Shown: positions 9,855 through 48,219 of the stretch, one piece after another
How the letters are laid out: each line of letters begins with the position of its first letter
How positions within the stretch are numbered: position 1 is the first letter of the stretch
Assembly (NCBI RefSeq): GCF_900155385.1
Contig: NZ_LT699744.1
Location: forward strand, 792,012-856,011
From: Vreelandella massiliensis
GTDB taxonomy: Bacteria; Pseudomonadota; Gammaproteobacteria; Pseudomonadales; Halomonadaceae
Length of the DNA stretch: 64,000 nt
Reading direction: 5' to 3'
Made by a program: the position numbers and the translations under genes
Notes under the pieces: generated by a model
What the model was told of the DNA's origin: nothing
Database searches by the model: none
The model's input: only the letters and a program-made list of their open reading frames with translations

Positions 9855-9857
9855 GCT

Positions 9858-14450: not shown

Positions 14451-14679
14451 GCGCCTATTTTCTCCTAAACAGGTCACTCAAACATCAAAGGCGCCAAGAA
14501 CGAGCCAAACAGAAAGGCCAAGCGGATGATCTTCCTGAGGTTTGGTGGATACAGTGGGTGGATACGGCGCTTCAGGTGAAGAGTATCTTGGCTGAACGCA
14601 TCTTGTAAGTGCTGATACGCGTCAAGTTTATCCGCATCTCACTCAAGTCGGGGTGTCGACGCCGATTTGTCGGGGCTCC
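14451..14679. other. Intergenic region before chemosensory operon
   Basis: No gene. On the minus strand a possible -35 TTGACG (14620-14625) lies at a plausible distance before the receptor gene, but the matching -10 is poor (AGATGC). No flagellar sigma-28 box is evident, which argues against control with the flagellar regulon. The end of the tyrosine ammonia-lyase gene borders it on the right, with only a 4-bp stem and no U tract, so read-through from the PYP operon is possible. Confidence 0.3.
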
Positions 14680-16230: not shown

Positions 16231-16263
16231 GCAAAACGTCCTTATTGGGGCGGGGCGGCCAGG

Positions 16264-17394: not shown

Positions 17395-17455
17395 GTACGG
17401 CTTTCCTTCGTTGTGGGCTTTAAAGGGCTATGGGTTTAAAAGGTGTGGGCGAGGT

Positions 17456-17833
17456 TTACAGCCGTTTAACGAAAACCCAATAGGTATCGCCTGAAATCGC
17501 CTTTTTCATATGCACCTTCACCTTGGTGGGCTGCATTTGGTAATCAAACACGTACTCAAACATCGTGTTCAAGTCGCCGCTTTTCACCCCTTCTTTGAAG
17601 CGGCCTTCGAACTCTTTGCCTTGGGTGCACGGCGCGACTTCTTTGAAGAAGTTTTTACCGATCACACTTTTCGGATCGCGTCCGGTAATGCCCCCTTCGG
17701 CGGCGTTGTACTGCAAAATCTTGCCATCCTTATCCAGCTGGATAGCGCCAAAGGCGAGCTCATCCAGCTTTTTGTCATCCATCGAGGCTAAGCTATTTTC
17801 AATGTCGTCGCTGCCAAAACGCACCATCTCCAT
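17456..17833 (-). CDS. pyp: Photoactive yellow protein (blue-light sensor)
   Basis: Cytosolic PAS-fold photoreceptor of exactly 125 aa, the length of the Halorhodospira halophila protein, and recognisably the same sequence through most of its length. All chromophore-pocket residues are in register: Tyr42, Glu46, Thr50, Arg52 and the p-coumaroyl attachment site Cys69 in APCT. It binds p-coumaric acid by a thioester and undergoes a blue-light photocycle. AAGGAG lies 6 nt before the ATG. The two chromophore genes follow on the same strand, and a probable promoter is at 17891-17919. What it signals to is not known in any organism with this classical form; the neighbouring c-di-GMP operon is a candidate by position only. 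Confidence 0.97.
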
Positions 17834-17996: not shown

Positions 17997-20900
17997 TCAG
18001 CGTGAAAGCCAGCCGCCTTTCTGACGGCTGTCCAAGGATTTGAGCTCCTTGGCGGCGCGCGTGCTGCTGATACGCTGCGTCGTGAGGTCCCGATAAATAC
18101 GATCGGCCCGGCGCCGGCGGCGAACGGCATCGCCCACATCGAGAAACGCCTCGAGAAATCCCAGCAGGGGTTGCCAGAGTCCGTGATGGGCTGCCACGTC
18201 AGCATCGTCTGTCTTTTCCAGGGCCTTGCGCCTGGCCTCTAGGCGCTTTTCGATTAGCTCGAGTTCCGCCTCGGCTCTCTCCTCCTGTGCCAGGGGGCGC
18301 TCGCGAACCTGCTTGAGCAGCGCCTGCATGTACTCCATTGACAGTACGCCGTACGCCTTGAATTCACTCAGAAACTTGAGGGCCTGGCGAGCCTGGCGCG
18401 AGTCGCCGTGAAGGAGCTTCTCGCCGGCGTGATACAGGCTGTCCCAGGCCTGCCAGCGGTAGACCCAATCAAGCCCGGTGCCCTTGATGTTCTGCATGCC
18501 GATGATGCGATTGGTGTAGCCGGGGGGTGTCCGCTCGGCAACGAGATCCACCAGCGCCTCGCCGCTGACGGTGGGCGAGGGCACTACTTCCAGGCGGCCT
18601 TTGAACCATTGCCACAGAAGTTCCCGGGCATCCTTCTCGAGCGCGCTCTTCTCAAGAGAGGCAGCGGATTGCCGCGAGGCCAGCCGCTGGTCGAGCGCAT
18701 CGAATCCCTTCCACTCCTTGAGAGTGATCCGGTGCTGCTCAAGAACGGCCTTTCTGCACGCCTCGGAGAGCTCTTCCTCGAACGCGGTCAAGCAGGGCGA
18801 GGGGTCGTCCAAGTGGTCGTCGAGCTCACTCTTGTCGGGGGTTACCTCAAGGCCTTCGAGCATCGCCGCGAGTCTGTCGATCACCGCCTCTCGCGAGGTG
18901 GGCACTCGCAGGTGCTGGGCTTGTCGCCGCCAGGTGTCGCGGGGGGAGGCCTCCTCGGTGAACAAAGAGGCGTCGGCGTAGCGACGCTCCCAAGCCCGCT
19001 CGATGTCGTCCATCAGCCCTTCTAGGTTGGTGCCGATGAGAAAGTGCCTATCGGCGCTGATGTCGTTGACCAGGATATCGGCAAAGACACGCGAGCGTGC
19101 TTGGCGGTCGGCACGGTTGTTGATCAGCGTCGTGACCCAGACGCCGGGGTCTTTCTGGGGATCTTGAGTGTCAAAGCCCATGCGGTGCCAGTTACCAAGA
19201 GCACCCAGGCGCTCATTGGCCGACATGCCGTTGGTGAACGTAAGGGTGCGCCCCCGCACCCGGGCGGGCGGGTACTCTTTCAGCGCGCCAAGATCCGGGA
19301 TGACGTGATCGGCCATGGCCTTGAGGGCGAAGAGCGGAGAAAGCCCGAGTGTTTCGGCCAGGCGCACCACCAAGGCAATGTTGGCCGGATGCTCCGCGTA
19401 GGGAAAGCGCGCCAGTATATCTTCGGGCAAGAGCGCGATATTGATCCAGTCGCTGTGAAAGCAGCGCGTGTCAAGCTTACGGCACGTCTGCTCGAGGATG
19501 GGCAGCATCTCTTCTTCGCTGGTGACCAGGGACCCCCGGCGCGGAATAAACTCGGTCATGACCTGCGGGATATCGATGCCGGCGGGACCCTGGATATCTT
19601 CGTGGTCAGGGTAGGTGTTGGTAATGGTGGCGATGTCGTCGCGCATCCACTGCTTTTGCAGTATCTGGACGTAGAAGGCGCGAAGGCCCATGCACTCCCA
19701 CAAAAAGACATCCACGTCGAGCTTTCTTGCCAGCTTGGTGATGGACGCCTGCTCCCAGATGGTGGCCTTGTCGTAGGGGCGAAAGAGCAGCATTTCCTGC
19801 AGCGGCCGGTGGCTTTCGCCGTGGAGTAGCACGGTTTCGCTGCCGGTGCTCTTGGATAGCACCTCAAGGCCGAGCCCGTTGAATAGGGCAGCCTTGAGGC
19901 GCTCGGTTCCCGATTTGCCGCGCGTTCCCCAGCCACCGATCACTAGCGCCAAGCCGTTGCGGGCGCGCCGGGTCGTGGCGTTGGTAACGGCATGGCGCCC
20001 GAGAAAGAGCGCGCCCATGCCACCCAGAAATACCATCAGCTGGCGCAGGCTGTTTTGGTACAGCGAGACGAAGTAGTCGGTATAGCGCTGCCACCACTCC
20101 AGCAACAGTGGCGATAGCCAGGCCAGCGAAAAAAAGCGCGTCACCGCCGGGTCGGCGGGCAGTGCGTGGCCCTCGAAGTCGGTATGGGGACGAAAGCGGA
20201 CCTGAAAGCCGAGGCGCCTGAGTGCTTCGACATAGCCCCTTACCGACATCCCGCGCCCTGGCTCCCAGTTGCGCAGCCTGGCATAGCGCGAAAAGCCGAA
20301 GGTGAGCTTGAGCCTTGCCTTGAGGCGGGCGATGAAACCCTTGGGTGGGGTGATCTCGGTGACGCCCTCGCTGGTGTAGAGGTGCATCGGCTGGGTCGGC
20401 CAGCCCTGGTCGAGGCTTGAAATAAGTTGATCGACCAGCGGCAGGTAAGGGCGCCACCCAGCCTCTTCGGGCATTTGCAGCGGCTCGCCGGGCACCTGAG
20501 TGGCGCTCAGCTCGGCTAGGCGCGCCGAGGGCACTTGCAGAAGTCCGTAGTAGACGCGTCCGAGGGTGTGATACCCCGCCTGGCGCTTGGAGGCGGAAGC
20601 GTGGGTCATCTCGTACCACAGCCGCCAGAGACGAAAGCGAAAGCGCTCCCAGCGCCGCCATGAAAGCCGCCGGCCTTTGACACTCACATCCAGCCCAAAA
20701 CCCTGCTGGGTGAAGAGACCCAGCACCCGCCCCAAGCGATCCGCGTCCACGGCTCGGGGGAGTTTCAGCCGCCGTGTCTTTTTCGCGGGGGTGTTATCCA
20801 GATGGTGCTTGATGTGCTCGTGCAGTGCCCGGGCCTCGGGGTCGGCCAGGCACCAGAGCCGCTCGCGTGCCTGGGCGGCCCAGCGCCGCACCCGAAAGTC

Positions 20901-22160: not shown

Positions 22161-22204
22161 GATGCCTCTTTCGGTTAAATCCCACTGCCTGTGCTGTGCC
22201 CTCT

Positions 22205-25200
22205 TTAATCACGTTGCACCATAAACGTATCGGTAAGCCCCATGGCACTCAGCCGCTGGCGGAGCGTCTCGACGCCTTGCGCATTTGTGCCTACCTGGAC
22301 GCGATAAACGCCACCACCGTCCACCAGACGGGTTGGCGCATCTAGCTTCCGGTCGATTTTTGTTTGCAGCTCAAGCGCGGCGGCTTCTGTGCTCAATGCC
22401 ATGACTTGCAAATAGCGGTCCACGTCATGGGGGATGGCCGTGCCACGGGTTTCCCGAGAGGTCGAGGGTATGGCCACCATGAACGTATCGGCAAAGCCCA
22501 TGGCAGTCAGTTGTTGACGAAGCGCCTCGACGTCTTGCGCATTTGCACCGACCTGGACGCGATAAAAGCCACCGCGGTTCACCAAGCGTGTGGGGGCGCC
22601 GAGTTGGCGATCGAGTCTCTCCCGTAGCGCAAGGGCCGAGGCTTGCGTACTCAACGCCACTACTTGTAGATAGCGATCCACGTCGTGGGAAGCCGGTGGA
22701 GGTGCTGCTCTATCGGCTGTCGTAGCATCGCTAACGTACAGCGGCGTCAGGCGGTTGGTATCAACATGCGAGCGCTGCTGAGCACGGCGCAGGTTCACGA
22801 AGTTCATTTCATCTGGGCGCATGAAGGGGCTCAGGCGCCCCTGATTGTCGTCAAGGGAGAAGTTCAGCTGCCAGCGCGTGGCCTCGCGCTGAATGTCGTA
22901 GCTCACTTCGGCGCCCAAGGCCAGGGCGTTGGAATCCTTGCCCCAGCGCAGCCAGTCGAGGCTCAGGAAAAGATCGGAGCGGTCGAGCGAGCTTTCGCGG
23001 TCATCGTCGGCCAGGTAGTGGCGATAGCGCATGCCAGCTTCGGCGGCAAGCGGGCCGAACAGCTGACCGGCGGCCGCTTCCAGGCGCCAGTGATCCGGCG
23101 ACAGCAGATTGAGATCCTCGTTGCTGACCACCGCCCCCTCGAGATACCAGCGCTGATCCCGCCAGGGCCACCAGGTGAGGCGATCGCCAAGGCTTAGGCT
23201 GCGCCGGTGATCGGCGGTATAGGGCGTGAAGATATCGGGGTCGATGTTGTCCAGGGCTGAGGCGGGCACGCTGTCCAGGCTCAGCCAGTGCTGATCGAGA
23301 ACAAGCTCGGGTTCATGGTCAAGCGTGGGGGAGAGTTCGTACTCTCTTGCCAGCCGTGTTTGCAGCTGTGCCGACCAGAGCCGGTCATCCACCCCGGAAA
23401 TGCTGCCGGGTTGCACCTGGGCTTCTCCGTACAACTGCAGTGTCCAGGGGCGTTGGGCGGGGTAGATATCCAGCCATTGGCGCGCGCCGAACAGCGATTG
23501 GCCACCCTCCAGGTGGCGCAGAAAAAGATCGCTTTGGCTGTAGATAGACGTATCGTTCAAGCCGAGGGGGTGATCAAGACGCTTACGGTAGCGCAACCCG
23601 CCCTCGATGGAGCCTGAATCCTGAACCGAGGTGATGGCATCATCGCTGCCCGCCAGACGCTTGTCGATATGCAGATAGAAGCCTGGGCTACCCGGGGTGG
23701 CCCCCGGTTCCTGGCTGTCGTGGGCCTGCCAGGCCAAGGGGGTGGGGAGCTCGGGCGCCTTTGGACCTTCGGCTGGCGCCGCCAGGGTTTCCTGTCGCGT
23801 TCGAGACGCCAGCGGTGGGCTTTCAGGGGCCTCGCGCAAGGCGTAGAGGCGGTAGTAGCGATCCTTATCCGTGGCCGAAAGCACCAGCGTCTGCAGGCCG
23901 GGCTCAATATAGCGGTAGCGGGGTGGGGTGCCGCCCGGCCGCCACTGCTCGATACGCACCCAGGCCGGGCCTTTGAGCTGAAAGCGCACCGGCTGGCTGG
24001 GCGAGGCAATGTGGTAGAGGCGATCGCTGGCGGCTTCCTCCTCCAGCGGGGAAAGCGGCGCATCGGTGCGCCTGAGCCTGGCGCTGACAAACTGCTGCTG
24101 GGCCGGTTCTTCGAGCCAGAGGCGCAGGGCATGCACGCCTTCATCGAAGGAGAGAGGCAGACGCGCGCGGGGCTCATCGAGGGTTACCCGTCTCGGGGGG
24201 CTATCATCAATCTGCACCATCACCGTGGCGGGAATGCGCCGGTTATAGGGCAGCGCTTTCTGCTCAAGCGCAAGCGTCAATGCAACGGGCTGCGGGTAGT
24301 CGAAGGTCAACCCTCGGGTATCGCGCCCGTGCAGAAAAAAGGCGTCATTGGTCTCGTCAAGCAAGGCCTTGCGCACTCGGCTAAAGGGGGCTTGCCACTG
24401 CTTCTCGAAGGGCAGCGGAAGAACGCCGGCATTCTCAAGACTGGTAGGCTGAAGCTGCCAGCTGAGCCCTTCCAGGGCCTTGTCACGTATGTCCCGCAAC
24501 GCCGGCAGATGCGTATAGGGCTTGGTCAGGCGGGCGATCCTGGCGGCCAATTCGTCATGGCGCTGCGGTTTTTGCTGCATTTCCCAAAGCAGGGTCATCG
24601 CCCGGGCATGGGTCTGCTCGGCATCGGGTACGGGGTCAGCGGGTGAGGGGAGCGGTGTCTCCAGGGCCACGGCATGGCTGCCGGGCGGCCATCCCGGGGG
24701 CTCGACGGGCCGGGCGGGAAAGCGTAAGCCGGCAAGTGAGTGGGCAAGCGCAGGTGTTGCTGCCGGCTCGAGCCCGCCTGCGTCTATCAGCCCATGGGTG
24801 TAGAGGCTTTCGGCAGGCAGCACGGGAAGCGGCACTGCCCGGCAATCGCTGATCAGCCGGTAGTCGGGCCTTTGCCGTGTGTCGCCGGAGGGCGCCTGAA
24901 AGCTGCCCGCAGGCGAGAGCAGGGCGCGCAGTGCCAGCGGCATCACCGGCGGCAGTATGGCCCAGCGGCTTTTGGGTTGCCACTGATCGATCTGAAACAG
25001 GTGAGCATGGGTTTGCGGCTGTAGGCGCAGGCGCTGCAGCCCCGGCGGTATCCGCAGCAGCACGTCATCAGCGATGCTGGTCGTCGGCTGCCCTGCGAGC
25101 GGCGCCAGGTAGGGATTTATCGGCTGGGCAGGCAGCGGGTGCAGACGGCGTTCGCCGGCGATTTCCGCCACCAGCCAGTCCAGGTCCTCCGGGCTATTGT

Positions 25201-27967
25201 CGGGGTCGAGCCGGCGCGCCTGGACGCGCAGTATCCGCGGCCCGACGACCTCTATCTCCACCGGCGCCTGCGCGGTGGCGCGAGGCAGCACCAGTGGCTT
25301 GCGGGTGACCTCGCTTTCAAGGGTGGCAAAGCCCGCCGACTGCGTTACCTCAGCCGTTAGTGAGTGCCACTCAAACCCCTTATCTGAGTCCAGGGACCAG
25401 GCAAGCCAACGCTCCACCGCCGCTTCGCGGGCGGCCCTGCCGGGGGTTGCCAGGGCGGCGGCAATGTTGCGGGCCTGTTGCAGCCGGGAGAGAGCCTTTT
25501 GACCGGCGACGCCGGCCGCTTTCCAGTGCCTGGCGGCTTCTTCGTCGCGCCCTCTGCGGGCGGCTTGCTCACCGAGCAGATAGGCCCGGCGAGTGGGTGG
25601 CAGCGTTGCCAGCGCCTGGTCGGCTGCGATCGGCCACTCGGCGTCAAAGGCGGCAAGCGCGAGCCAGTTGGGCGCTTGGCCGAGCCTTGCCAGTACCAGC
25701 CCCAGCTGGGTCGCCCAGAGCGGCTCGCCGCTTTGGTGAAGGGCTTGGCCCAAAGGGTTGAGCAGGGTTGGATCCCCTTCCCGGAGAAAGCGTGCCGCGA
25801 GCAGACGGATCTGGCTGTTCCAGTCCTGGGTCGCCTGGTACTGCGTCAGAAGGTCTTGGGTGGCAAGCTCGCGCGCCTGTGAGTCCGCGCCCAGAAGAGC
25901 CGCCGCCTGGCGCTGCCTGAGAGCCGTGAAGTGCTCGTCCAGGGCCTTGAGGGCTTGCTGGGAGAGCCGGTAGGCTTCGGCATTTTGGCCGTAACCCAGG
26001 CTGCCGAGGGCTTCCATCACCTCAAGCCACTGCTCGTTGGCGGCGGCCTTGCGTGCGGCACCAAGCCGGGCCTCAAGCCGCACAGGGCTCGGCGGTGAGT
26101 TCTCTGGGTGGAGGTGATCAAGCCAGGCGGATTGCGCGGCGTGCAGTTCGCGCAGCAGCGGGTACCACTGATTGGCCAGGGCGCGCTCGGAGGAGATAAC
26201 GGTTGGCAATGGCCGGGAGGCGGGGTCCGCCACGGCCTGAAAGCGCTGGTGAAGGTGAGCCACCAGCGCCACGGGAGGCTGGCTTTCCAGAGCTTTCAGG
26301 TAGGCGCTTTCGTCCGCAACGAAGGGCTGGCTGGCGCGGTACTGCAGGGCGAGTTTAACGGGATGGCTCGCTTCCACCCGTACCCTGGCCACGTGCCTTG
26401 GCAGGTCGAGCTCGATACTCGCCACGGGCAGGTGGTGGCCCGGTTCGCGATGGGCAGCAAAGAGCCCCTCAAGCGTCGGGGGAATCCGCTTTTGCAGATG
26501 GGACAGCAGCGCCTCTTGGGGCGAGTCGACCTCAAGGCCGTCAGGGTCAAGCGCGAGCAGCCGGGCCGGTCCATCGTCATAGCGCACGCGCAGCGTGGCT
26601 CCGGAGGCTAAAAAAGGCGTTGCGACCGCCAGGCGCAGTCGTGAGGGGCCTTCACGTGGGGGGAGCGGGTAGCTTGTGGGGCTCGTCCCCAGGCTGACGA
26701 AGGCGCCCTTGGACATCTGATCGAAAATCCCGCTGCCTTGACGAGCATCCTGAAACGCATTGCTGAGAAAATAGCGGGGCGCATCGAGAAGCTCACCGGG
26801 GGCAACCGCGCTGAACCAGGCGGCCTTCGTGCGCGTCGGTTCGGCATCGGGGTAGAGGTTGCGAAAGAAGCGCTGGCGGAATTCGATGTTCGCGGCCAGG
26901 GCGTCAGCCACGGGGTCTCGCTGGGTACCGGGTGCCGGCGCCAGCCGGGCAAGCGCAAGGTCGGCGGCCCCTTCGAGGTGATTGCTGCGGGCCAGGGCGT
27001 CGATCTCGGCAAGGGGGTTGCCGTTATGGGCCAGGGGCGTGTTCAGCAGCTGTCGGGTGCGCGCCTCGACCGTCGGCTCGGGTGCGTTGCTTTCCAGAAA
27101 ATAGGCGTGCCGCTCGGCGTGCTCAAGGCTGATCAGCAAGGCGTTCCGAGCGCGCAGGCCAAGGCGGTGGCGCCCCTTCGGGATGACCAGATAGCGTCTT
27201 TCCATGTCGCCGTGAAGCAGGCAGCTGTCGGTGTCCCGGCGCTGGGCATTGGGGGTGAGCTGGGGGCGACGCGGATCGGTCGGCTGCCAGTCGCTGCCAT
27301 CCAGTTGCCACTCCAGGCCGGAGCGCGGTGGGTCGCTGTAGTATGCAGGAGCGCCCGGACGGCTTGCCAGCGCCAGTACCGCCGGCCCCTTAACCTCTCG
27401 ATAAACGGCGTTTTCAGCGGGCAGTTCATAAGCGGTCACCTGGCTGCCGTCCTCGTTGTATAAGCGGACCTTGGGCAGTGGCAGATCGAGCGGGCGGTAG
27501 GTATCGGGTGCGTCGATGGGGTCCGGTTCGGCGACTAGCAAGCGGCCATTGTTCGCCCCCTCCAGACGGGCGTAGCCGGCTTCCGACGCGTTGGCGATGT
27601 GAAACCACTCCCCCGACTCGGTGCCGGTTGTCCACGCCACCGCTTGCCAGAGACGGGCATCCCGGGAAAGCCAGAGCCGTGGCGGGCGGCTTTCATCCTC
27701 GCCCTGCCAGCGCAGATACCCAGGTGCCGGCACGGCGAAAAGCCCACTATTCGGTGTTTCCAGACCGGCTTTTTCAAGGATTACCGCCTCACGGGCGGGC
27801 CGCCAGATGAGCCGTTCGCCCTGGTGGTTGCGGTCGAGTGCATGCAGTGGGTCTGCCGAATAGACAGGGGGCAGTGCCAGGGCCAGAGCCGGTATCAGAA
27901 AGCCCAAAAGCAGCGGCAAGGCCACTAGGCATGTTTTTCGCAGGGTGGCTTGTGAGTGCAAGATCAT
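22205..27967 (-). CDS. Giant secreted protein, probable outer-membrane exporter with two SPOR domains
   Basis: Protein of 1920 aa with a signal peptide (cleavage after ALALA near residue 32). The N-terminal half is beta-rich, then comes an alpha-helical, TPR-like solenoid (about 600-900) rich in Ala/Leu/Gln. Residues about 1480-1750 look like an outer-membrane beta-barrel, with alternating aromatic strands such as QRWYLEGAVVS, AEAGMRYRHYL and LFLSLDWLRWG. Two tandem SPOR-type domains (HDVDRYLQV...FYRVQVG) end the protein. Helical repeat plus barrel recalls exopolysaccharide exporters such as PgaA and BcsC, with SPOR domains giving peptidoglycan contact. Start overlaps the upstream gene (ATGA). 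Export of the polymer is inferred from architecture and operon; no close family recognised. Confidence 0.65.
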   Translation of the reverse strand: MILHSQATLRKTCLVALPLLLGFLIPALALALPPVYSADPLHALDRNHQGERLIWRPAREAVILEKAGLETPNSGLFAVPAPGYLRWQGEDESRPPRLWLSRDARLWQAVAWTTGTESGEWFHIANASEAGYARLEGANNGRLLVAEPDPIDAPDTYRPLDLPLPKVRLYNEDGSQVTAYELPAENAVYREVKGPAVLALASRPGAPAYYSDPPRSGLEWQLDGSDWQPTDPRRPQLTPNAQRRDTDSCLLHGDMERRYLVIPKGRHRLGLRARNALLISLEHAERHAYFLESNAPEPTVEARTRQLLNTPLAHNGNPLAEIDALARSNHLEGAADLALARLAPAPGTQRDPVADALAANIEFRQRFFRNLYPDAEPTRTKAAWFSAVAPGELLDAPRYFLSNAFQDARQGSGIFDQMSKGAFVSLGTSPTSYPLPPREGPSRLRLAVATPFLASGATLRVRYDDGPARLLALDPDGLEVDSPQEALLSHLQKRIPPTLEGLFAAHREPGHHLPVASIELDLPRHVARVRVEASHPVKLALQYRASQPFVADESAYLKALESQPPVALVAHLHQRFQAVADPASRPLPTVISSERALANQWYPLLRELHAAQSAWLDHLHPENSPPSPVRLEARLGAARKAAANEQWLEVMEALGSLGYGQNAEAYRLSQQALKALDEHFTALRQRQAAALLGADSQARELATQDLLTQYQATQDWNSQIRLLAARFLREGDPTLLNPLGQALHQSGEPLWATQLGLVLARLGQAPNWLALAAFDAEWPIAADQALATLPPTRRAYLLGEQAARRGRDEEAARHWKAAGVAGQKALSRLQQARNIAAALATPGRAAREAAVERWLAWSLDSDKGFEWHSLTAEVTQSAGFATLESEVTRKPLVLPRATAQAPVEIEVVGPRILRVQARRLDPDNSPEDLDWLVAEIAGERRLHPLPAQPINPYLAPLAGQPTTSIADDVLLRIPPGLQRLRLQPQTHAHLFQIDQWQPKSRWAILPPVMPLALRALLSPAGSFQAPSGDTRQRPDYRLISDCRAVPLPVLPAESLYTHGLIDAGGLEPAATPALAHSLAGLRFPARPVEPPGWPPGSHAVALETPLPSPADPVPDAEQTHARAMTLLWEMQQKPQRHDELAARIARLTKPYTHLPALRDIRDKALEGLSWQLQPTSLENAGVLPLPFEKQWQAPFSRVRKALLDETNDAFFLHGRDTRGLTFDYPQPVALTLALEQKALPYNRRIPATVMVQIDDSPPRRVTLDEPRARLPLSFDEGVHALRLWLEEPAQQQFVSARLRRTDAPLSPLEEEAASDRLYHIASPSQPVRFQLKGPAWVRIEQWRPGGTPPRYRYIEPGLQTLVLSATDKDRYYRLYALREAPESPPLASRTRQETLAAPAEGPKAPELPTPLAWQAHDSQEPGATPGSPGFYLHIDKRLAGSDDAITSVQDSGSIEGGLRYRKRLDHPLGLNDTSIYSQSDLFLRHLEGGQSLFGARQWLDIYPAQRPWTLQLYGEAQVQPGSISGVDDRLWSAQLQTRLAREYELSPTLDHEPELVLDQHWLSLDSVPASALDNIDPDIFTPYTADHRRSLSLGDRLTWWPWRDQRWYLEGAVVSNEDLNLLSPDHWRLEAAAGQLFGPLAAEAGMRYRHYLADDDRESSLDRSDLFLSLDWLRWGKDSNALALGAEVSYDIQREATRWQLNFSLDDNQGRLSPFMRPDEMNFVNLRRAQQRSHVDTNRLTPLYVSDATTADRAAPPPASHDVDRYLQVVALSTQASALALRERLDRQLGAPTRLVNRGGFYRVQVGANAQDVEALRQQLTAMGFADTFMVAIPSTSRETRGTAIPHDVDRYLQVMALSTEAAALELQTKIDRKLDAPTRLVDGGGVYRVQVGTNAQGVETLRQRLSAMGLTDTFMVQRD
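22207..22688 (-). repeat. Tandem SPOR-coding repeat (258-bp period)
   Basis: Two in-frame copies of an 80-residue SPOR-type unit lie at about 22465-22688 and 22207-22430, offset by 258 bp (86 codons), for example TAGCGATCCA at 22671 against TAGCGGTCCA at 22413. Protein units share HDVDRYLQV-ALST, a linker APTRLV-GG, YRVQVG-NAQ and a closing MG--DTFMV. The copies differ at several positions, so the duplication is not brand new. Confidence 0.8.
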
Positions 27968-30420
27968 GGGCTCTGCTCGGTGAAGGTTTGGATGCGCTTG
28001 TATTCGCCGGGGAGGATCTCGTAGACGACGAGGTAACCAGGGCCGCCGCTTTCTCGGGTGAACGTCAGCTCAAAAGGCCCCTCGGGAAGATCCTCGCCCA
28101 GCTCAAAGAGCAGCATCTGTCCGTCAGCGACGTCTTCGCTCTGGTGATCAAGCACATAGCCCTGCGGACGCGTCGCGCCCTCGGGTCTGATGATGTAGCG
28201 CTGCTCTGTGTTTGTCCAGGCGGTTACCGGGCCCGAGGCAAGACGACCGGCGTTGAGGCGGGCGTGAATCACGCTGGGCCGGTTCGGCTGAGTGCGGTAG
28301 AAACGCGCCCCGATGAGCCGCGACGCTTCGGGGTGGGCCGGCAGGGTGAAGTGCAGCGGCTGGTCCTTCAGGCGGTAGCCTAGGCGCCGGATGTAGCCCT
28401 CTTCATTGGGATAGCGATAGTTCAAAAGCCACTCGCCGGCACTGCTTGAGTCGAGCGCGATGCTCTGTCTGCCGGTTGCCGTACTTGGCAGAAGAAGACT
28501 TCCGCGCCTGCCGCTCAAAAGGTGCTCGCGCCTCTGGCCACCCAGACGGACGCTCAGGCGGAAGGGCTCGGCCGAGTCGCGCAGATAGATCAGCTCGGGC
28601 TCGATTCGGTGATCGGCGAGGGGTGTTTCAAAGACAACGGAGGCCTCGATGGCGTGCTTTGGGCTTCCACTGCCTTCGTTTCCACGGTCTTCCGCCAGCG
28701 GCTGAAAATAGACCGGCAACCCTTGGGGGCGAAGCTGCGCTAGGTTCTCTGCCGGCAGCAGCAGTCGTGCGCCATGGGCGCCACGCTGAGGTTCCAGGCC
28801 CTCCCACGCATAGTCACCGGCAAGAAGTGCCGGATTGCGCTCGGGCGGGCTTGACTGCAGATGTAGCACCACGCTCTGGGTAGTGGCCGTTCCGGCCGGC
28901 AGGGGGTCGAGCAGAAACCATCGCGGCCGTGGAGACGCGTCCCCCTTCCAGGGATAGTAGTCCTCGGGCACACGCCTTGTATGCGCCAGGTCCGGCGGGC
29001 GGGTATAGGCGCTCACGAGAACCGAGTCATCGCTTGTGATCTCGACCCGGCTGACCTGGGGGGAGAGGCGAAAGAAGAAGCTTGCCGGTTGCGAGGTGTC
29101 GGCAATGGCCGGCGTCGAGGCCACCCGATCGAAGGCCGAAGGCGGCAGGCTGGGCGTCAGCTCGCCTTGCTCGAGAAGCTTATCTTGGGCGTCGTAGAAA
29201 CGGTAGGTGGCTTCAGTAGGGGTCTGAGCCGGCAGCGGCACCCCCTGACCAAAAGCGCGCAGGTCCAGCCGCAGGGGCGTGCGGTGGTGTTCATTCGGCG
29301 TTAGCCGGTAATTGACTCCCCCTTGTCCGGCCTGATGGGCGCGCAGATAGAGGGGCTCGGGCAGGGCGCTGGTGTGGGGGCTCTCAGCCGGAAAGATGTC
29401 GAGAAGCCCGGGCCTGTTTGACTGCACAAGCACAAGGCCCTTTTCGAAGTGCCGCGGCATACGACCGAGTGCTCGTGGCAGCTCAAGGGATTCAAGGCGG
29501 GCGGGTTCAAGCTCCTCGGTCAGTTGGTGAAACGTCAGCCGCAAGGGGGCGCCGCCGTTTTCCAGATCCCTGAATTGAACCACGTAGTCGCCGCTGGCTG
29601 GGATGGGGACAACACCAAAACGCTTGCGATCGATATAGCGTCCGGGCGCCTGAACGGTCAGTGCCGGGTCGACGGTGGATTCAAGCCCTTCGACGCTGAA
29701 AAGCCGCCCTTGTGGCGGGCGGGTGCCCAGGGGTGCCGTGGGTCGCCAGCGGGTCTGCAGCAGGTGGCGTTTCTCCTGTTCGCTCAAGAGCACCGGTGGC
29801 GCGATGATTGCCTCGGAAAGGCGCTCACGCTCTGCCTGGGCCAGGCGCTCCCACTCCACCGCTGCTTCTCTCGGGCTCTGGCGCTCTTCACGGTAGAAGC
29901 GCAGGGCCAGGTTGCGCAGTGGTTCTGTCAAAGGCTCGGCGCGTAGCTTCAGGTAGGCGGCGTCGGGCAACGCCTTGAGGTTTAAGTTGAAGGCCTGCCC
30001 ACTGGCCACCGATAGCTCTTGCTCGGCGTAGAGGTAGGGCGGCACCGGCGTTCCCGCCTTTTCCAGACGTGGCGGCAACCGGGTTTCATGGGTGTATCGG
30101 CCTCTTTTCAGTAATCGGCGCTTGTCATCCAGCACCTCGTAGACCAGGGTATAGCGCAGCTCCGCCTCTCTGGGGGTGTCCGGCGCGACGCCTGCGTGGG
30201 TCAGCAGGCGCACTTGGCTAGGCCGATTGATAAGAGGAAAGGTGAGCCATTCATCCCCAGAGAGAAAATAGACTCGGGTGGTATGGGTCTCAAGGTCCAG
30301 CGTTTTTACGAGCGCGGGCAAGCTGGTGGGTAGTTGCCAGAAAGGGCGCAGGGCGTGATACCCCGCGACGAGTAGCGCCGAGAGCAGTGCCAGCAGAAAA
30401 ATCCGGCCTATCCACCTCAT
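27964..30420 (-). CDS. Membrane-anchored periplasmic protein of polymer locus
   Basis: Protein of 818 aa with one N-terminal membrane helix (about residues 6-24) and no other, so the rest should lie in the periplasm. The body is beta-rich with many short strands and Pro/Arg/Gly turns, and shows no catalytic motif I can name. Its style resembles the N-terminal half of the 1920-residue protein that follows, including repeated -RYYIRPEG- and -RFYRT- strands, which suggests related carbohydrate- or polymer-binding beta-sandwich units. Both ends overlap neighbours by ATGA, so it is translated together with the CapC-like protein and the exporter. A periplasmic bridge between ligase complex and outer membrane is inferred. 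It does not resemble CapA/PgsA, the third protein of known poly-gamma-glutamate systems. Confidence 0.6.
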   Translation of the reverse strand: MRWIGRIFLLALLSALLVAGYHALRPFWQLPTSLPALVKTLDLETHTTRVYFLSGDEWLTFPLINRPSQVRLLTHAGVAPDTPREAELRYTLVYEVLDDKRRLLKRGRYTHETRLPPRLEKAGTPVPPYLYAEQELSVASGQAFNLNLKALPDAAYLKLRAEPLTEPLRNLALRFYREERQSPREAAVEWERLAQAERERLSEAIIAPPVLLSEQEKRHLLQTRWRPTAPLGTRPPQGRLFSVEGLESTVDPALTVQAPGRYIDRKRFGVVPIPASGDYVVQFRDLENGGAPLRLTFHQLTEELEPARLESLELPRALGRMPRHFEKGLVLVQSNRPGLLDIFPAESPHTSALPEPLYLRAHQAGQGGVNYRLTPNEHHRTPLRLDLRAFGQGVPLPAQTPTEATYRFYDAQDKLLEQGELTPSLPPSAFDRVASTPAIADTSQPASFFFRLSPQVSRVEITSDDSVLVSAYTRPPDLAHTRRVPEDYYPWKGDASPRPRWFLLDPLPAGTATTQSVVLHLQSSPPERNPALLAGDYAWEGLEPQRGAHGARLLLPAENLAQLRPQGLPVYFQPLAEDRGNEGSGSPKHAIEASVVFETPLADHRIEPELIYLRDSAEPFRLSVRLGGQRREHLLSGRRGSLLLPSTATGRQSIALDSSSAGEWLLNYRYPNEEGYIRRLGYRLKDQPLHFTLPAHPEASRLIGARFYRTQPNRPSVIHARLNAGRLASGPVTAWTNTEQRYIIRPEGATRPQGYVLDHQSEDVADGQMLLFELGEDLPEGPFELTFTRESGGPGYLVVYEILPGEYKRIQTFTEQSP

Positions 30421-33400
30421 CGCGGCCCTCCTGTGTCCCTCTCGCCTGATGAATGCAGCAGGAAGGCGCGGCTGGCGGCAAAGGCCTCAAGCCTTGTTGC
30501 CAGGTTATCGTCGGTCTTGAACGTCAGCGTTTTCTGGCTAATGGGCGCCAGATTGGCTAAGGCTAAGAGATGCTCACCATCCGTTGTGATAAGGAGAAAG
30601 GCCTGATCGGTATCCGGTGTCAGTAGGCGGGTGAGGCGGTAGCCTGGCATCTGTTGCAGCTGGCGCAGAGCCATGATGTCGCCGGTTAGGTGGTAGCGAA
30701 AGAGCAGGGCGCGCATGGCCGTCGGTAGCGACTGGCTGGCAACGCCGCGCACCGTTGCCTGCTCGGCGAGAGGTGCTTTTACGGTCTCGATGCCCAGTGC
30801 CTGAAATTGGGCCTTTTGCTGGCGCCTTTGGGATTGCGGGGCGAAGGCATCGCGTGCCTGGGACGTCAGCCAGAGGCTGGCAAACTGCTTGTTGCGTGTG
30901 GCGTCAAGGTATTGCGCCTGGGCATTGAAGCCTACCTCGTAGCCGGCGGTGCTTGCCTCGCCTTGCCTTTCCTTGAGCTTAAGTCCCAGTGTCGAAAGCC
31001 CGGATTCAAGCTCACGGCCCAGTGGCGTGCTGGAAAGCAGCGGCTCTCCTGTCACGGCAACGCCACTGGCCAGTGCCACAAGGCCCGGCTGGGAAAGAGC
31101 GGGCAGGTTTTCCATGCCCCGTACCTGGCTGATCATAAGCGGGGCATCACCGGCCTCGCGCACCAGCGTCTGATGCACCTGGTTGAATAGATGCAGTGGC
31201 GGTGTGGGATCGAGCGCATCAAGCTGGCCCGCGGGGTTGGGGAAGGGGTGCCGGCCGGCGATTAAAAGCGCCTTCGCCTTGAGCTGCCGGAAAAGGGCCA
31301 CGCCGGCTTCCAGCGTATGCTGCTCGAAGAAGGGCCTTGGTACCTCGACCAGCTGCGCCTGCGACTCACCCACGCGGAAAATATAGGTGCCCCATGGGGG
31401 GCGGCTGTTTCTGTTGGCTGCTTCAAGCACGAGAAATGACGCATCAGACGTTGCAAAGCGAATAAGGCAGTAACCCACCCCCCGGGCCAGGCTATCGAGG
31501 TAGGCCAGCTCTTGTTGGCCGGCTCTTGAGTCAAACGCGGGATGCTCGATCAGCTTGAGCAGCGGCGTCAGCACTTCCCGGTCGAAATACAGCAAAGTGG
31601 CGAGGCCCGGCTCGATGAAAGTGGGCTGGCCAACGTTGCGAAGCCGTACGGCCCGATCGATCAAGTAGGCGTGAAGCGAGCCTTGGCGTTCTCGTCGGCC
31701 AGCCTCCGGTTGAGCGTTGTGCTCGATAAGCGAAAGGGCAGTGTTTCTCGACAGCAAAAGCTCGGCAAAGCCGCCGGCTGTGGACTCGCGCTGGATGTTG
31801 TGGTCCCGAGGGCTCTCCCATCTCAGGTTCACACGACCAAGCACCTCCTCCATGGGAGTTAGCTTGAGATCCGCCGGGAGCTTCTGTTTTACCCGCAGGG
31901 CGGTTTCATGGTGGGTGGAAGTGAGGCGTAGCTGCAGGCTGTTTCCCGGACTCATGTGGCGATGAAAACGGTGAAAGAGAGTGTCGGGATGTCGTGTCGC
32001 ATCGATGGCGCCTTGCGCGGGGGAGCGTAGCGTGATTCCGCCGATGGCAAGCGCTGCCGCCTTTTGTTGATGAAAAAGCGCAAGACCGGCATCAGCGGCA
32101 CCGAGTTCACCGCCATCCGGTACTTGGATCACAAGCTCGCTCTGGGTACGGGTGTCGATGACATAGGTGCCGAAGCCTCTTGGCAGCGTGTTTTCCCGCA
32201 GTACGAGGTAGCGGTCTTCCAAAACCCGTAGGTCGTAGTCGAGCTTGCCAAGCATCAAGCGCGCACGCTGCAGGTGGCGGGGGCTTCTGTTGCGGCGAAA
32301 ATCTTGCAGGGTAGAAAGGGCGTCTTCAAACAGCGTCAGCTGCTGAGACGTCGGCAGAGGCGTCGTTTCACGCTCGATGCTGGCGTATTCCAGGATCCGC
32401 TGGCGCAGCATGAAGGATTCAAGCGTGGTGTCGCCTATCATGGGGGTGGGCGAGACGGGCGCCTTCGGCTCATCCATCAGTTTGAGCGGCAGAAGGCTCA
32501 GGGCAAAGCCGAAAAAGCTTGCCAGGATCACCGCGACAAGTGAGGTCTGAAGGGTTGCCCGGGTGACGAGAATGCCGATGTCCTTGTCGTGGATCTTAAT
32601 CGCCAGTAGGGCGGAAATCAGGTAGCCAAAGGCGAAGTAGCTCCTGGCGTCGATTTCAGGAGCCCACTCGTTTAGCGCATGGCCGAGAAGCAGCTTGTAG
32701 ACGAGCCCCAGGGTGAAGAATAGGAAAAGCTTGCGGGCGCCAGTGAGAGTGGCAAGCGAAAGCCAGGGCAGCTTGAACAGCAATTTCACCATCAAGAGCA
32801 GCACCGCCACTTCTATAAAGGTAAACGCCAAAGAAACCGGCTGATACCACTGCAGCGCTAGCAGGGAGGGGATGATGATGCCGTTGAACTCCCAGGCGTA
32901 ATGCAGGTTCATGCGCGAGGCAATCAAGGCCGTAGTCAGAAGGATGATGTAGGCCTTGGGGCTATCGAAGATGGAGCTTGCGATATCCTCGTAGAGATAG
33001 GCGAGGTTACCCAGCGAGAAGTTGGTAAGCGCCATCAGCCCGAAGCGCACCAGCACAAAGGTGAGAAAGAGCGTAACCAGAAGCCAAAGGGAGCCGCGCA
33101 CCAGGCCCGGCTTCCAGAAATTGTGGGCGATGAGGGCGACGATGATCAGCCCGAAGCTGTGCAACTGGTTTTCATAATCGAACCGCAGGCCGAAGTGCTG
33201 ATTGGCGTAGGCGCCTATATCGGGAAGCAAAAAGCCGTCGAACACCACGCGCACGGCAACGCTTGCCAGCAGAATGGCGAAGAAGCGCTCGCGACCGAAG
33301 AAGTGGGCAAGCCCCAAATAGCGTCCGCCCAGAGCGGAAATACTCCAAACCAGCAGGTAGGTGACGATGCCCTCGGCGATGATCACCGCCACGTTCCAGG

Positions 33401-33575
33401 GGCGAAACAGCAGCAGGGGGACCAGATAGCCGGGTACCACCAGGCCGGCAAGACTCCAACCCAGACGCAGGTTGAAGAAAGCCACTACCCCAACACCTAC
33501 CCAGACGGTGGTGATAACGGAGCTTGCTAGGCTTCCCTCGGGGAATATCGGCAGGACCGGGAGCTCCCAGCTCAT
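30417..33575 (-). CDS. CapC/PgsC-like polytopic membrane protein with large C-terminal domain
   Basis: Protein of 1052 aa. The first 360 residues hold about ten membrane helices arranged as two CapC-like units. The first has AGLVVPGYLVPLL near residue 40, then an alternating helix pair, then FGRERFFAILLASVAVRVVFD, in the same order as in PgsC (GLVVPGYL...GRRKFAA). The second has NGIIIPSLLAL near 220 followed by TGARKLFLF. PgsC alone is about 150 aa, so this is a duplicated form. The remaining 690 residues are soluble and unrecognised, with repeated segments of mixed alpha/beta pattern (GVALFRQLKAKALLIAG, AGLALFHQQKAAALAIGG). Expected to work with the CapB-like ligase in the inner membrane. 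Overlaps the next gene by ATGA. Confidence 0.78.
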   Translation of the reverse strand: MSWELPVLPIFPEGSLASSVITTVWVGVGVVAFFNLRLGWSLAGLVVPGYLVPLLLFRPWNVAVIIAEGIVTYLLVWSISALGGRYLGLAHFFGRERFFAILLASVAVRVVFDGFLLPDIGAYANQHFGLRFDYENQLHSFGLIIVALIAHNFWKPGLVRGSLWLLVTLFLTFVLVRFGLMALTNFSLGNLAYLYEDIASSIFDSPKAYIILLTTALIASRMNLHYAWEFNGIIIPSLLALQWYQPVSLAFTFIEVAVLLLMVKLLFKLPWLSLATLTGARKLFLFFTLGLVYKLLLGHALNEWAPEIDARSYFAFGYLISALLAIKIHDKDIGILVTRATLQTSLVAVILASFFGFALSLLPLKLMDEPKAPVSPTPMIGDTTLESFMLRQRILEYASIERETTPLPTSQQLTLFEDALSTLQDFRRNRSPRHLQRARLMLGKLDYDLRVLEDRYLVLRENTLPRGFGTYVIDTRTQSELVIQVPDGGELGAADAGLALFHQQKAAALAIGGITLRSPAQGAIDATRHPDTLFHRFHRHMSPGNSLQLRLTSTHHETALRVKQKLPADLKLTPMEEVLGRVNLRWESPRDHNIQRESTAGGFAELLLSRNTALSLIEHNAQPEAGRRERQGSLHAYLIDRAVRLRNVGQPTFIEPGLATLLYFDREVLTPLLKLIEHPAFDSRAGQQELAYLDSLARGVGYCLIRFATSDASFLVLEAANRNSRPPWGTYIFRVGESQAQLVEVPRPFFEQHTLEAGVALFRQLKAKALLIAGRHPFPNPAGQLDALDPTPPLHLFNQVHQTLVREAGDAPLMISQVRGMENLPALSQPGLVALASGVAVTGEPLLSSTPLGRELESGLSTLGLKLKERQGEASTAGYEVGFNAQAQYLDATRNKQFASLWLTSQARDAFAPQSQRRQQKAQFQALGIETVKAPLAEQATVRGVASQSLPTAMRALLFRYHLTGDIMALRQLQQMPGYRLTRLLTPDTDQAFLLITTDGEHLLALANLAPISQKTLTFKTDDNLATRLEAFAASRAFLLHSSGERDTGGPR

Positions 33576-33611
33576 CGGGACAGGCTCCGGCGGCTCGGGT
33601 AGCGACGGCTA

Positions 33612-36332
33612 TCAGTCGGTGTCACGGTCATCCTCGGCAAGCCCACTCCCCGTCAGTTGATGCTTGGCCAGTTCCTCACGCAGTGAAAGCGCGGGGAGCC
33701 GGATCTCAATACACAGGCCCTGGCCCAAGGCGGAATGGCCCTGGAGCTTGCCGCCCCACTCGTGTACCCGGCGGCGCGCTTGAGCGAGGCGCTGAAAGGC
33801 GGGGGGAAGCTCCCCGCTGTCTTCTTCAAGCAGCGCCTTGAAGCGCTCGTCGGGCATGCCGTAGCCCTGATTTTCCAGGCGTAGCAGCACCCGGCTTTTT
33901 CCTTCGTGCGTTTGCTGCTCAAGATCGAGCATGACCTTCTTACCGGCAATGCAGTCCTCGGCGAGAACTTCCATGATGTCATCGAGTACCTCAATGACAT
34001 TACCTGCGTCGACGCGCACCAAGGTATCGACCGCGCTCTCACCGGTGGCAAGCTCAAGCCCACCGGCTTCAAGGCGCGGCGCCCAGCGTCGTGTGGTCTC
34101 CTCGAGCAGGGTTACAGGGTTCACGGGGAAATCGGTGAGCCTGTGAATATCGGCAGCGCTTTGATGGTGTTGTGTTGCCTGTTTCGAGCTCTGAAGGGCG
34201 GATTCAAGCGCTGCCTGCAGGTGGCTTGCTTCATCGCTTGCAGGCAGAGCCCTTGCCGCCCGCAGGCTCGATTCAATCCGTTGGCAGAGGTCGGCGTCGA
34301 TCATGCGGCTGACATCCTGTTTGAGCCGCTCGAGCCACACCACCTGGCTGACATCCACGAGTTCAAACAGAAAACCCAGAAAATGCAGGGGGGTGTCTTC
34401 CCGCTCGGAACTGCCCGGCTTTAGGCTCTCTTCCCGGGCGTCTTCTTCCAGCGCCTGGGCCTTGAGAGGGCGCACATTAAGCAAACAAGCACTGCCTGCC
34501 AAGGGCAGGTCGACGGCAAATACTCGCGGCTGGTCGGTCTGTACCAGGTACTGCAGGTGACGGCGAGCCTGGGAAAGGGGCATGTCGCCAAGGGTCGCGA
34601 GGACATCGGCGGCGGTCAGCGAGAAGATGGAGAGATCCGCGCGCCGGGCCAGGTCCTTCATTCGACGGTTGACCTGGGAGACCTGGCCGAAGGCGTCGTA
34701 GAGGATGGTGCTGGTCTTGAGGTTGTCAAAAACGTCTTCGAGCAGCGAAATACGGCGCTCGAGCAGCAGCGCCATGTCGCTTAGAGACTGGTACTCAGCT
34801 TTCAGGGAGTCGAGTTTCAGCAGTCGTGCCCATTCGCTGGATTCGCGCTCCTGGCGCGCCTGAAAGCGCTGGCGCCGATACAGCAGCTCGCCGATGCGCT
34901 CGCTGAAATCGCCGAGCAGCGAAAGAAAGAAGGGCGTTTCGTCGAGTGTTTGCTTTGTCACCTCCCCACTGAAAAAGCCCAGAACCCGCCCGTTGAACTC
35001 TAGTGGCACGAGAAACTGCCGGCTATCGGGCGCGGGGTTTTTGAGAAAGGCTTGGTTCAAGAGCAAAGGGCCGCCTTCGAGCCGCGCTGAGGCGTAAGGT
35101 GTGCGCTCGAAATCGCGCCGGCGCTCATCGATGTCCTCGATGGAGCAGCCGTAGGCCTTAACCTCGCGGACGTGATGGCGCCCTGGAATGCGCTCAAGCA
35201 CGATGGCTTTTTCCAGATTCAGCAGCTGGGTGGTCAGCAGGATGACGTGGCCCCACGGATCGTCGCTGGTATTGAAGTCCGTGGGTAGCAAGCGGTCCTG
35301 AAGATAGCCGCTGCTGGTGCGCAATACCTGCCTCACCGTACTCGATTCACGCCGCTGTTCACGCCGGGAGATCAGATACCAGAGCAGCAGGTGAAAAGCG
35401 ATAAGCTGGCTGGTGGGCACTATCCAGCCGACAAAATGCAGGGCGGCCCAGCCAGCGGCAAACAGCACAAGGCTTCCGCCAATGGCGATGCCAAGCGCAT
35501 GGGATACCCCCCAAAAGACATACAGCAGGATCGCGGCCACTATCAGCACGCCCCAGAACAGCAGGTTCTGCCAGGGTGTGATCCTGTGCAGCGAGGATGG
35601 CTGCAGCAGCGTCTCCACCGCGTAGCCGGCATGCATCAGCCGGGATATCTCGCCTTTAACGGAAAGGGGCGTTTGCAGGGGTGGGTTCAGCGAGTCGATG
35701 CCTTGCCCGATGAGCACCGCCCGGCCATTGATCAGGTCGGGGGTGAGGTCGCCTTTCAGCACGCGATCGAGCCTGATCAGCGGGAGATGATTGATGCCGG
35801 GGCGAAAGTCAATGAGAAACGCCTCCCCGGCCACCTCCTCTTGACCGGCAAGGTTTGCGACGGCCGCTTCCAGGCTGGTGACGGTGTCATCGCCAATGCG
35901 TGGGTGCGGCTGATGCAAGCCTACGTCTTCAGGCCAGGGCGAGGGCGCCGGGGTTATCACAGACGCGTGCGAAGAAGTCTGGTCATGGGCCTCACCGATG
36001 ACTACCCCCTGCTGCCGCGCAGCATCAAGGCCTGCCTTCGATACGCGTGGCGGCGGGTACATCACGCCGATGGCAGCGGGCTCGAAGCGTTTAAGCTGCT
36101 GGATCAACAAAGGCCACTCATCTTCTTCCAGGGTTTGCAGGTCGCCTTCTACCAGCAGCACCTGGGAGGGTGGCTGATCGATGGGGGGCATTAGCCGATG
36201 GTACTCACGATAGACCGAGGCGTCGGGCAGGCGAAAAACGCCTGCGTAGTCAGCAAGCCAGATAAGGACAAGGGTCACAATGGCGATCAGAAGGCCCGCG
36301 GCCCGCCAGCGGCTCAATGGGATCAGAAGCAT
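33612..36332 (-). CDS. CHASE2 membrane sensor with degenerate kinase-like end
   Basis: Protein of 906 aa leading the polymer operon. TM1 about 10-28; periplasmic CHASE2-type domain about 35-270 (VLLVEGDLQTLEEDEWPLL, DFRPG, GRAVLIGQG); three TM helices about 275-345; then a GAF-like region (about 370-490), a coiled coil with a PAS-like part (about 520-640) and a C-terminal HATPase-like segment. The latter has an N-box-like VIEVLDDIMEVLAED, ENQGYGMPDERF in place of DxGxG and ALGQGLCIEI as the last glycine motif, but no convincing phospho-His box. It may bind ATP weakly or act as a pseudokinase. It likely senses envelope state and controls the CapB/CapC machine; its link is by operon position. 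Confidence 0.75.
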   Translation of the reverse strand: MLLIPLSRWRAAGLLIAIVTLVLIWLADYAGVFRLPDASVYREYHRLMPPIDQPPSQVLLVEGDLQTLEEDEWPLLIQQLKRFEPAAIGVMYPPPRVSKAGLDAARQQGVVIGEAHDQTSSHASVITPAPSPWPEDVGLHQPHPRIGDDTVTSLEAAVANLAGQEEVAGEAFLIDFRPGINHLPLIRLDRVLKGDLTPDLINGRAVLIGQGIDSLNPPLQTPLSVKGEISRLMHAGYAVETLLQPSSLHRITPWQNLLFWGVLIVAAILLYVFWGVSHALGIAIGGSLVLFAAGWAALHFVGWIVPTSQLIAFHLLLWYLISRREQRRESSTVRQVLRTSSGYLQDRLLPTDFNTSDDPWGHVILLTTQLLNLEKAIVLERIPGRHHVREVKAYGCSIEDIDERRRDFERTPYASARLEGGPLLLNQAFLKNPAPDSRQFLVPLEFNGRVLGFFSGEVTKQTLDETPFFLSLLGDFSERIGELLYRRQRFQARQERESSEWARLLKLDSLKAEYQSLSDMALLLERRISLLEDVFDNLKTSTILYDAFGQVSQVNRRMKDLARRADLSIFSLTAADVLATLGDMPLSQARRHLQYLVQTDQPRVFAVDLPLAGSACLLNVRPLKAQALEEDAREESLKPGSSEREDTPLHFLGFLFELVDVSQVVWLERLKQDVSRMIDADLCQRIESSLRAARALPASDEASHLQAALESALQSSKQATQHHQSAADIHRLTDFPVNPVTLLEETTRRWAPRLEAGGLELATGESAVDTLVRVDAGNVIEVLDDIMEVLAEDCIAGKKVMLDLEQQTHEGKSRVLLRLENQGYGMPDERFKALLEEDSGELPPAFQRLAQARRRVHEWGGKLQGHSALGQGLCIEIRLPALSLREELAKHQLTGSGLAEDDRDTD

Positions 36333-41148: not shown

Positions 41149-41189
41149 TTCCAAGGCACTAATATTTGCGCTCGACAGGAAATAAAAAG

Positions 41190-43884: not shown

Positions 43885-44046
43885 GCGAGCGGCGCCGGCC
43901 CGGCTAAGCCTTTAGCGCGAATATCGACCACCTCCAGCGCCGCATTCGCGAAATCACCCAAATCCGAAGTCAGATTTTCGTGTGGCAACGATAGGCAGTC
44001 GCCCGTGCTAAAGTGGAGAAAGTTTTCCCTTTCAAGGTGCTATTCG

Positions 44047-48217: not shown

Positions 48218-48219
48218 AC

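Follow-up and report, generated by a model that had tools for sequence, protein, structure and literature searches.

Known loci for poly-gamma-glutamate (PGA), of the PgsBCA/CapBCA(DE) type, have as their core pair a PgsB-like ligase and CapC. The accessible excerpts of one review list the producers as Gram-positives, archaea and a single Gram-negative, Fusobacterium nucleatum, and name no route by which PGA crosses the outer membrane (PMC3815933). The capBCA genes of F. nucleatum and of Cloacimonadota, the latter a three-gene operon of the CapB, CapC, CapA type (PMC13082233), are likewise PGA genes in Gram-negatives, with no outer-membrane exporter named for either in the available parts of the two papers (PMC3815933, PMC13082233). 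Here, we describe a five-gene locus of Vreelandella massiliensis, located in a window of 64,000 nucleotides (the whole stretch analysed: contig NZ_LT699744.1, positions 792,012 to 856,011 of the forward strand, in a genome of 3.44 Mb and 23 contigs), which shares this core pair and which we posit, with a probability of roughly two in three, to encode the synthase of a gamma-glutamyl polymer together with a periplasmic conduit and an outer-membrane channel to which it is coupled. This reading is based on the PgsB and CapC pair, on the predicted fold of Hyd, the product of a sixth gene found in relatives, and on the predicted barrel of a protein that we call P4. Compared with PgsBCA/CapBCA(DE), the window ligase is fused to HEAT repeats, CapC is doubled and carries two extra domains, and the module adds the proteins P3, P4 and CHASE2 and, in relatives, Hyd. 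The gene order and its conservation, the family matches, the predicted folds and the homology of the CapC tail to Hyd are directly supported.

The locus comprises five co-directional open reading frames on the minus strand (17997-36332), which translate as follows:

33612..36332, minus strand: gene 1, 906 amino acids (aa); CHASE2 sensor (aa 20-268) with a degenerate histidine-kinase-like C-terminus (aa 785-881)
30417..33575, minus strand: gene 2, 1052 aa; CapC/PgsC-like membrane protein with two CapC repeats and two Hyd-like C-terminal domains
27964..30420, minus strand: gene 3 (P3), 818 aa; single N-terminal hydrophobic stretch; ATGA overlap with gene 2
22205..27967, minus strand: gene 4 (P4), 1920 aa, secreted; ATGA overlap with gene 3
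17997..22160, minus strand: gene 5, up to 1387 aa; HEAT repeats fused to a PgsB/CapB-like ligase

All five frames are present at the place and on the strand given by an initial annotation of this DNA, which had also quoted ligase and CapC motifs that can be found in the translations. Its description of most genes as overlapping by ATGA was wrong, since such overlaps occur at two of the four junctions (genes 2/3 and 3/4), with gaps of 36 and 44 bases at the other two, and its view of PGA loci as mostly Gram-positive was wrong or incomplete, as loci are also recorded outside the Gram-positives in the accessible parts of two papers (PMC5542703, PMC13082233). Gene 5 starts at a TTG, or at an ATG 12 bases further on.

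Pfam and NCBIfam profile searches were applied to all five proteins, with NCBIfam ligase matches considered at E<=1. Gene 5 matched the PgsB family TIGR04012 (172.9 bits, E 8.3e-51) and no other NCBIfam ligase family at that threshold, which rules out a ligase of a family other than PgsB, and the corresponding ligase of a second gene set in the same genome (see below) scored 193.6 bits against the same model. The two parts of gene 5 lie as follows:

18996..19979, minus strand: PgsB-like ligase region, aa 728-1055 of gene 5; TIGR04012 match; contains the GGWGTRGKSGTE loop
21051..21608, minus strand: HEAT repeats, aa 185-370 of gene 5; PF02985 25.7 bits, above the cut-off

The GGWGTRGKSGTE loop was invariant across 18 aligned sequences, and the closest named ligase relative among the matches listed came from Halomonas alkaliantarctica (98% identity), which points to a host related to Halomonas within Pseudomonadota. 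A second HEAT family, PF13646, scored 26.4 bits in the same part of the protein, slightly under its cut-off, and the gene 5 profile matched designed alphaRep proteins among solved structures (best E 4.4e-14); searches of solved structures with the ligase, P3, P4 and Hyd sequences returned such HEAT-type matches only, the rest being at chance level. No glycosyltransferase domain was detected by Pfam in any of the five proteins at E<=1, which rules out an ordinary polysaccharide export operon.

Gene 2 matched the CapC family PF14102 at 131.5 bits, above the cut-off, and each of its halves exceeds that cut-off (27 bits) by itself, so that CapC is doubled:

33096..33500, minus strand: CapC repeat 1, aa 26-160; PF14102 85.5 bits
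32577..32930, minus strand: CapC repeat 2, aa 216-333; PF14102 60.9 bits

The CapA/PgsA family (PF09587) had no match genome-wide, with B. subtilis positive as control. CapA is treated as accessory in the available text of one study (PMC5542703), and PGA production without PgsA is on record for B. subtilis in that of another (PMC6029982), so the missing CapA is no obstacle to a PGA-type synthase. P3 carries a single hydrophobic stretch at its N-terminus (residues 3-21), with no Pfam domain and no NCBIfam match. The initial annotation had recognized correctly the fusion of HEAT repeats to a CapB-type ligase, for which PgsB was the only NCBIfam ligase model matched, as well as the duplicated CapC, the anchored P3, the absence of CapA and the CHASE2 sensor (below).

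P4 begins with a hydrophobic stretch (aa 14-32), followed by a presumed periplasmic part, and its C-terminal end was modelled from a 50-sequence alignment as a barrel, in agreement with the probable barrel first proposed for this 1920-aa protein:

22847..23692, minus strand: predicted 14-strand beta barrel, aa 1426-1707 of P4; predicted structure model
22214..22672, minus strand: two SPOR domains after the barrel, aa ~1766-1918 of P4; PF05036 53.8 bits in two stretches, the second repeat being placed (1835-1920) from the match to the second set

A C-terminal single-chain beta barrel, as predicted here, is also the arrangement of outer-membrane polymer exporters. Whereas BcsC, PgaA, PelB and AlgK/AlgE partner a glycosyltransferase, the partner in this module is an amide ligase, and the barrels most like the P4 model are CymA and OmpG, with BcsC and PelB resembling it less closely. 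Exporters of this type also have a periplasmic TPR superhelix, for which matches in P4 proteins were sparse (TPR_2 in two of 25, with a best E of 0.071; TPR_16 in one; further weak matches at 0.084 and 0.87), and LysM gave one weak match (0.024). The P4 of a Sulfuricellaceae locus (L080) has an OmpA-type domain within its presumed periplasmic part, at residue ~597.

The genes occur together widely elsewhere, as the initial annotation's proposed survey of co-occurrence now bears out. A search with the gene 5 protein gave 1306 matches at E<=0.001 among 7997 scored candidates, the best 120 listed covering 79-100% of the query, and a scan of genome contigs gave 330 stretches encoding the ligase, of which the best 80 (L018-L097) were kept and their neighbours mapped with custom profiles. 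Of these 80 loci, 56 extend for 9 kb or more upstream of the ligase and served to count gene order; the arrangement CapC-P3-Hyd-P4-ligase was seen in 41 of the 56. In the Thiodiazotropha locus L024, too, these five stand together in that order. The less complete orders include CapC-P3-P4-ligase (one locus), Hyd-P4-ligase (one), P4-ligase (two), CHASE2-ligase (two) and the ligase by itself (three). In most loci the 10-kb flank stops short of CHASE2, so that the linkage of this gene was counted only where the sequence extends to it, and was seen in the window, the second set, two congener loci (L016, partial, and L017) and alphaproteobacterial sets. Record titles of the 80 loci name gammaproteobacteria, Nitrosomonas, Ramlibacter, Erythrobacter-type genera, Desulfobacterales, Nitrospirae, Planctomycetota, Hydrogenedentes, Verrucomicrobiia, Sulfidibacter and Sulfurovum; the order of the gene set is therefore largely kept across distantly related Gram-negative groups, and relatives carrying the same genes together rule out an oddity of one strain. 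Within the phylum Pseudomonadota, the fused HEAT/PgsB-like ligase was found in 7 of 398 genomes, and a plain PgsB family search of the 398 returned the same seven and no other at E<=1e-20, with frames of 1109-1431 aa (in the genome with the 1109-aa frame, G111, the HEAT part lies on a separate contig). The fused ligase is present in 4 of 82 genomes of the genus, and this patchy spread suggests horizontal transfer.

The sixth gene, hyd (~295 aa), sits between genes 3 and 4 in two congeners and in the second set, and is missing from the window copy by tblastn and by inspection of the frame lists; the proposal of a five-gene system is thus accurate for the window, while the congeners have six. 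The Hyd N-terminus has a hydrophobic stretch, and by eye we take the protein as secreted. Its predicted fold resembles N-formylglutamate amidohydrolase, poly-gamma-glutamate hydrolases and carboxypeptidases, and its residues H123, D127, H189 and E267 are invariant in 40 of 40 members. Compared with the gamma-PGA hydrolases PghP/YndL (PF05908) and with N-formylglutamate amidohydrolase, Hyd is alike in predicted fold and has this invariant His/Asp/His/Glu set; it differs from PghP/YndL in that none of the 40 members matched PF05908 and in being encoded inside a synthesis module. The C-terminal tail of CapC is homologous to Hyd:

31716..32360, minus strand: Hyd-like domain 1 of CapC, aa ~406-620; hhalign 98.1%, E 9.8e-14; hmmsearch match
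30819..31643, minus strand: Hyd-like domain 2 of CapC, aa ~645-919; hhalign 98.2%, E 3.1e-14 (98.4% alone); hmmsearch match

A Hyd-only profile matched the window CapC twice (residues 408-541 and 687-772) and 34 of the 52 CapC sequences kept, three of them twice, many CapC being cut by locus ends. Where Hyd has H123, one copy in the window CapC reads Asp and the other Arg; in place of H189, both copies read Arg. Because the conserved His residues are replaced, the two domains are probably non-catalytic in this strain, and CapC would hold with them two polymer-binding domains.

Several observations weigh against a gamma-glutamyl synthase with its own channel. The ligase and CapC both score under the equivalog cut-offs, which sets them apart from PgsBCA/CapBCA(DE): the TIGR04012 score compares with a PgsB cut-off of 222.7 bits, and gene 2 reaches 58.9 bits against TIGR04011 (PgsC; cut-off 96.45). 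Carboxypeptidases tie with two gamma-PGA hydrolases as fold matches of Hyd, and the CapC of locus L079 retains a His at the H123 position, with Arg at that of H189; both points weaken the reading slightly. The set CHASE2-CapC-P3-Hyd-ligase occurs without P4 in 6 of the 56 loci, P4 is absent from whole genomes (below), and no polymer is known for the module. The same machine could handle another amide chain, whether poly-aspartate, a glutamyl peptide of mixed composition or a glutamylated carrier, for example, and would then be PGA-like and not PGA, an option that we consider unlikely. The missed cut-offs would fit it, as would the count of 0 of 398 same-phylum genomes with a match above the PgsB cut-off and a Hyd fold nearer to 2odf and to the N-formylglutamate amidohydrolase 2q7s than to gamma-PGA hydrolases, with which carboxypeptidases tie; however, the five best fold matches of Hyd include three gamma-PGA hydrolases and one N-formylglutamate amidohydrolase, and no further NCBIfam ligase family was matched.

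P4 was sought genome-wide in ten genomes without it beside the ligase (L086 was left out). Four of them (L076, L034, L026, L042) have it at another place or 2 kb beyond the stretch fetched, and it was absent from all six others (L074, L078, L082, L085, L088, L094), which from their names we take to be alphaproteobacteria. P4 is therefore not universal among carriers of the core module, and no other result weighs as heavily against the proposed reading. Five of these six have only a short P3 (251-264 aa), that of L082 being cut by the locus edge, and a 780-aa frame adjoining CapC in L082 had no NCBIfam match. Such genomes, together with the SPOR domains of the window P4 and the single OmpA and weak LysM matches in P4 proteins, would suit a polymer that remains periplasmic or envelope-anchored, for example as an osmotic gel in the periplasm, with P4 as an outer-membrane anchor or sensor and not a channel; yet the 14-strand barrel is of the porin type, and P4 ends at most 600 bases from the ligase in 56 of the 73 loci having at least 400 bases upstream, and we regard a periplasmic destination as improbable. 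The initial proposal of an amide polymer carried across two membranes has the support of a Hyd-like partner with glutamyl-amide fold relatives, and is weakened by the six exporter-less genomes.

The genome holds a second set, spread over two contigs. The edge of contig C1 carries CHASE2, CapC and the beginning of P3, whose end lies on contig C2 together with Hyd, P4 and the ligase. The only Hyd genome-wide is encoded there, the other three Hyd-profile matches being CapC domains. The second-set P4 frame is split at an Illumina adapter motif (L015:12067-12079; G000:C2), an assembly fault. No adapter motif occurs in the window, where the P3/P4 ATGA junction is clean, which speaks against a sequencing artefact as the cause of the missing Hyd. 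Could the window copy be a decaying spare after loss of Hyd, with the second set doing the work? The lack of Hyd and the divergence of the two sets (~42-61% identity by protein) would allow it, but all five window frames align to relatives over nearly their full length and the junction is intact, while the adapter motif lies in the second set; we give decay little credence.

Gene 1 matched PF05226 (CHASE2) at 44.5 bits, above the cut-off, and HATPase_c at 16.4 bits, below it. Among 14 aligned relatives, no His column was shared by 12 or more, and no N-box Asn was seen by eye in the aligned ATPase block; gene 1 is for these reasons likely a non-catalytic sensor related to histidine kinases. Functionally, then, we posit for the gamma-glutamyl synthase and channel that the ligase would use ATP to link glutamate through amide bonds on the cytoplasmic side, the HEAT part likely serving as a scaffold, and that the doubled CapC would move the chain over the inner membrane while its two Hyd-like domains would hold it in the periplasm. 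P3, with its anchor in the inner membrane, would form a bridge to P4, which would pass the chain through its barrel and, in this strain, be fixed to the cell wall by the SPOR domains. Hyd, where present (most relatives and the second set), would cut stalled or misrouted chains, analogous to AlgL, which does the equivalent cutting for alginate. The CHASE2 protein, related to kinases and missing the usual His, would act as the sensor of an external signal. It is an even bet that the module is a diderm-specific amide-polymer secretion machine, an amide counterpart of the cellulose and Pel exporters, in which the ligase pair has recruited a HEAT scaffold, Hyd with two dead copies in CapC that hold the chain in the periplasm, a bridge at the inner membrane and a dedicated outer-membrane barrel.

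The locus has a G+C content of 63.2%, against 59.4% in the remaining window; promoter-like sites were at chance level (3 found, 3.0 expected), and 29 terminator-like sites were found against 15.8 expected. Directly downstream (14680-17833, minus strand) lies a photoactive yellow protein gene (TIGR02373, 215 bits; best solved-structure match E 1e-64), accompanied by genes for a 4-coumarate-CoA ligase-like protein and an aromatic amino acid ammonia-lyase, and adjoined by a chemotaxis set (7683-14477, minus strand) of an MCP with a Cache domain, CheB, CheR and a CheA with response regulator, which together suggest a light-taxis unit. At 41166-43102 (plus strand), a HemS-like frame overlaps an iron/haem-type permease frame, whose match begins ~90-130 residues into BtuC models; the two have no gene for a periplasmic binding protein between them, and the arrangement looks like a deletion. 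At 45689-49788 (minus strand), a large frame without NCBIfam match adjoins a gene like NADH-quinone oxidoreductase subunit L (501.7 bits), with a LysR-type-looking gene upstream, a pair resembling a DabA/DabB inorganic-carbon pump. Between the haem-uptake and carbon-pump-like genes, at 44005-45648 (plus strand), is a 547-aa frame that has no NCBIfam match and in which a Walker-type loop can be seen by eye close to the start.

A HEAT-fused PgsB, hydrolase-like CapC tails and a polyglutamate outer-membrane exporter are undescribed in the titles and abstracts among the literature matches listed, most subscription journals being excluded, and the export half looks new for a PGA-type polymer, if confirmed. 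Natrialba is said to produce PGA against high-salt dehydration in the accessible part of one review (PMC3815933), and a similar use is plausible here by analogy. CapB and CapC genes are reported to be enriched in symbionts of lucinid clams from the Tropical Eastern Pacific, grouped under storage compounds in the available text (PMC11168628). A conserved set in which a predicted channel is joined by a hydrolase-like partner and by the Hyd-like domains of CapC makes PGA-type export testable one gene at a time, and halophiles, sulfur oxidisers and animal symbionts emerge as candidate polymer producers.
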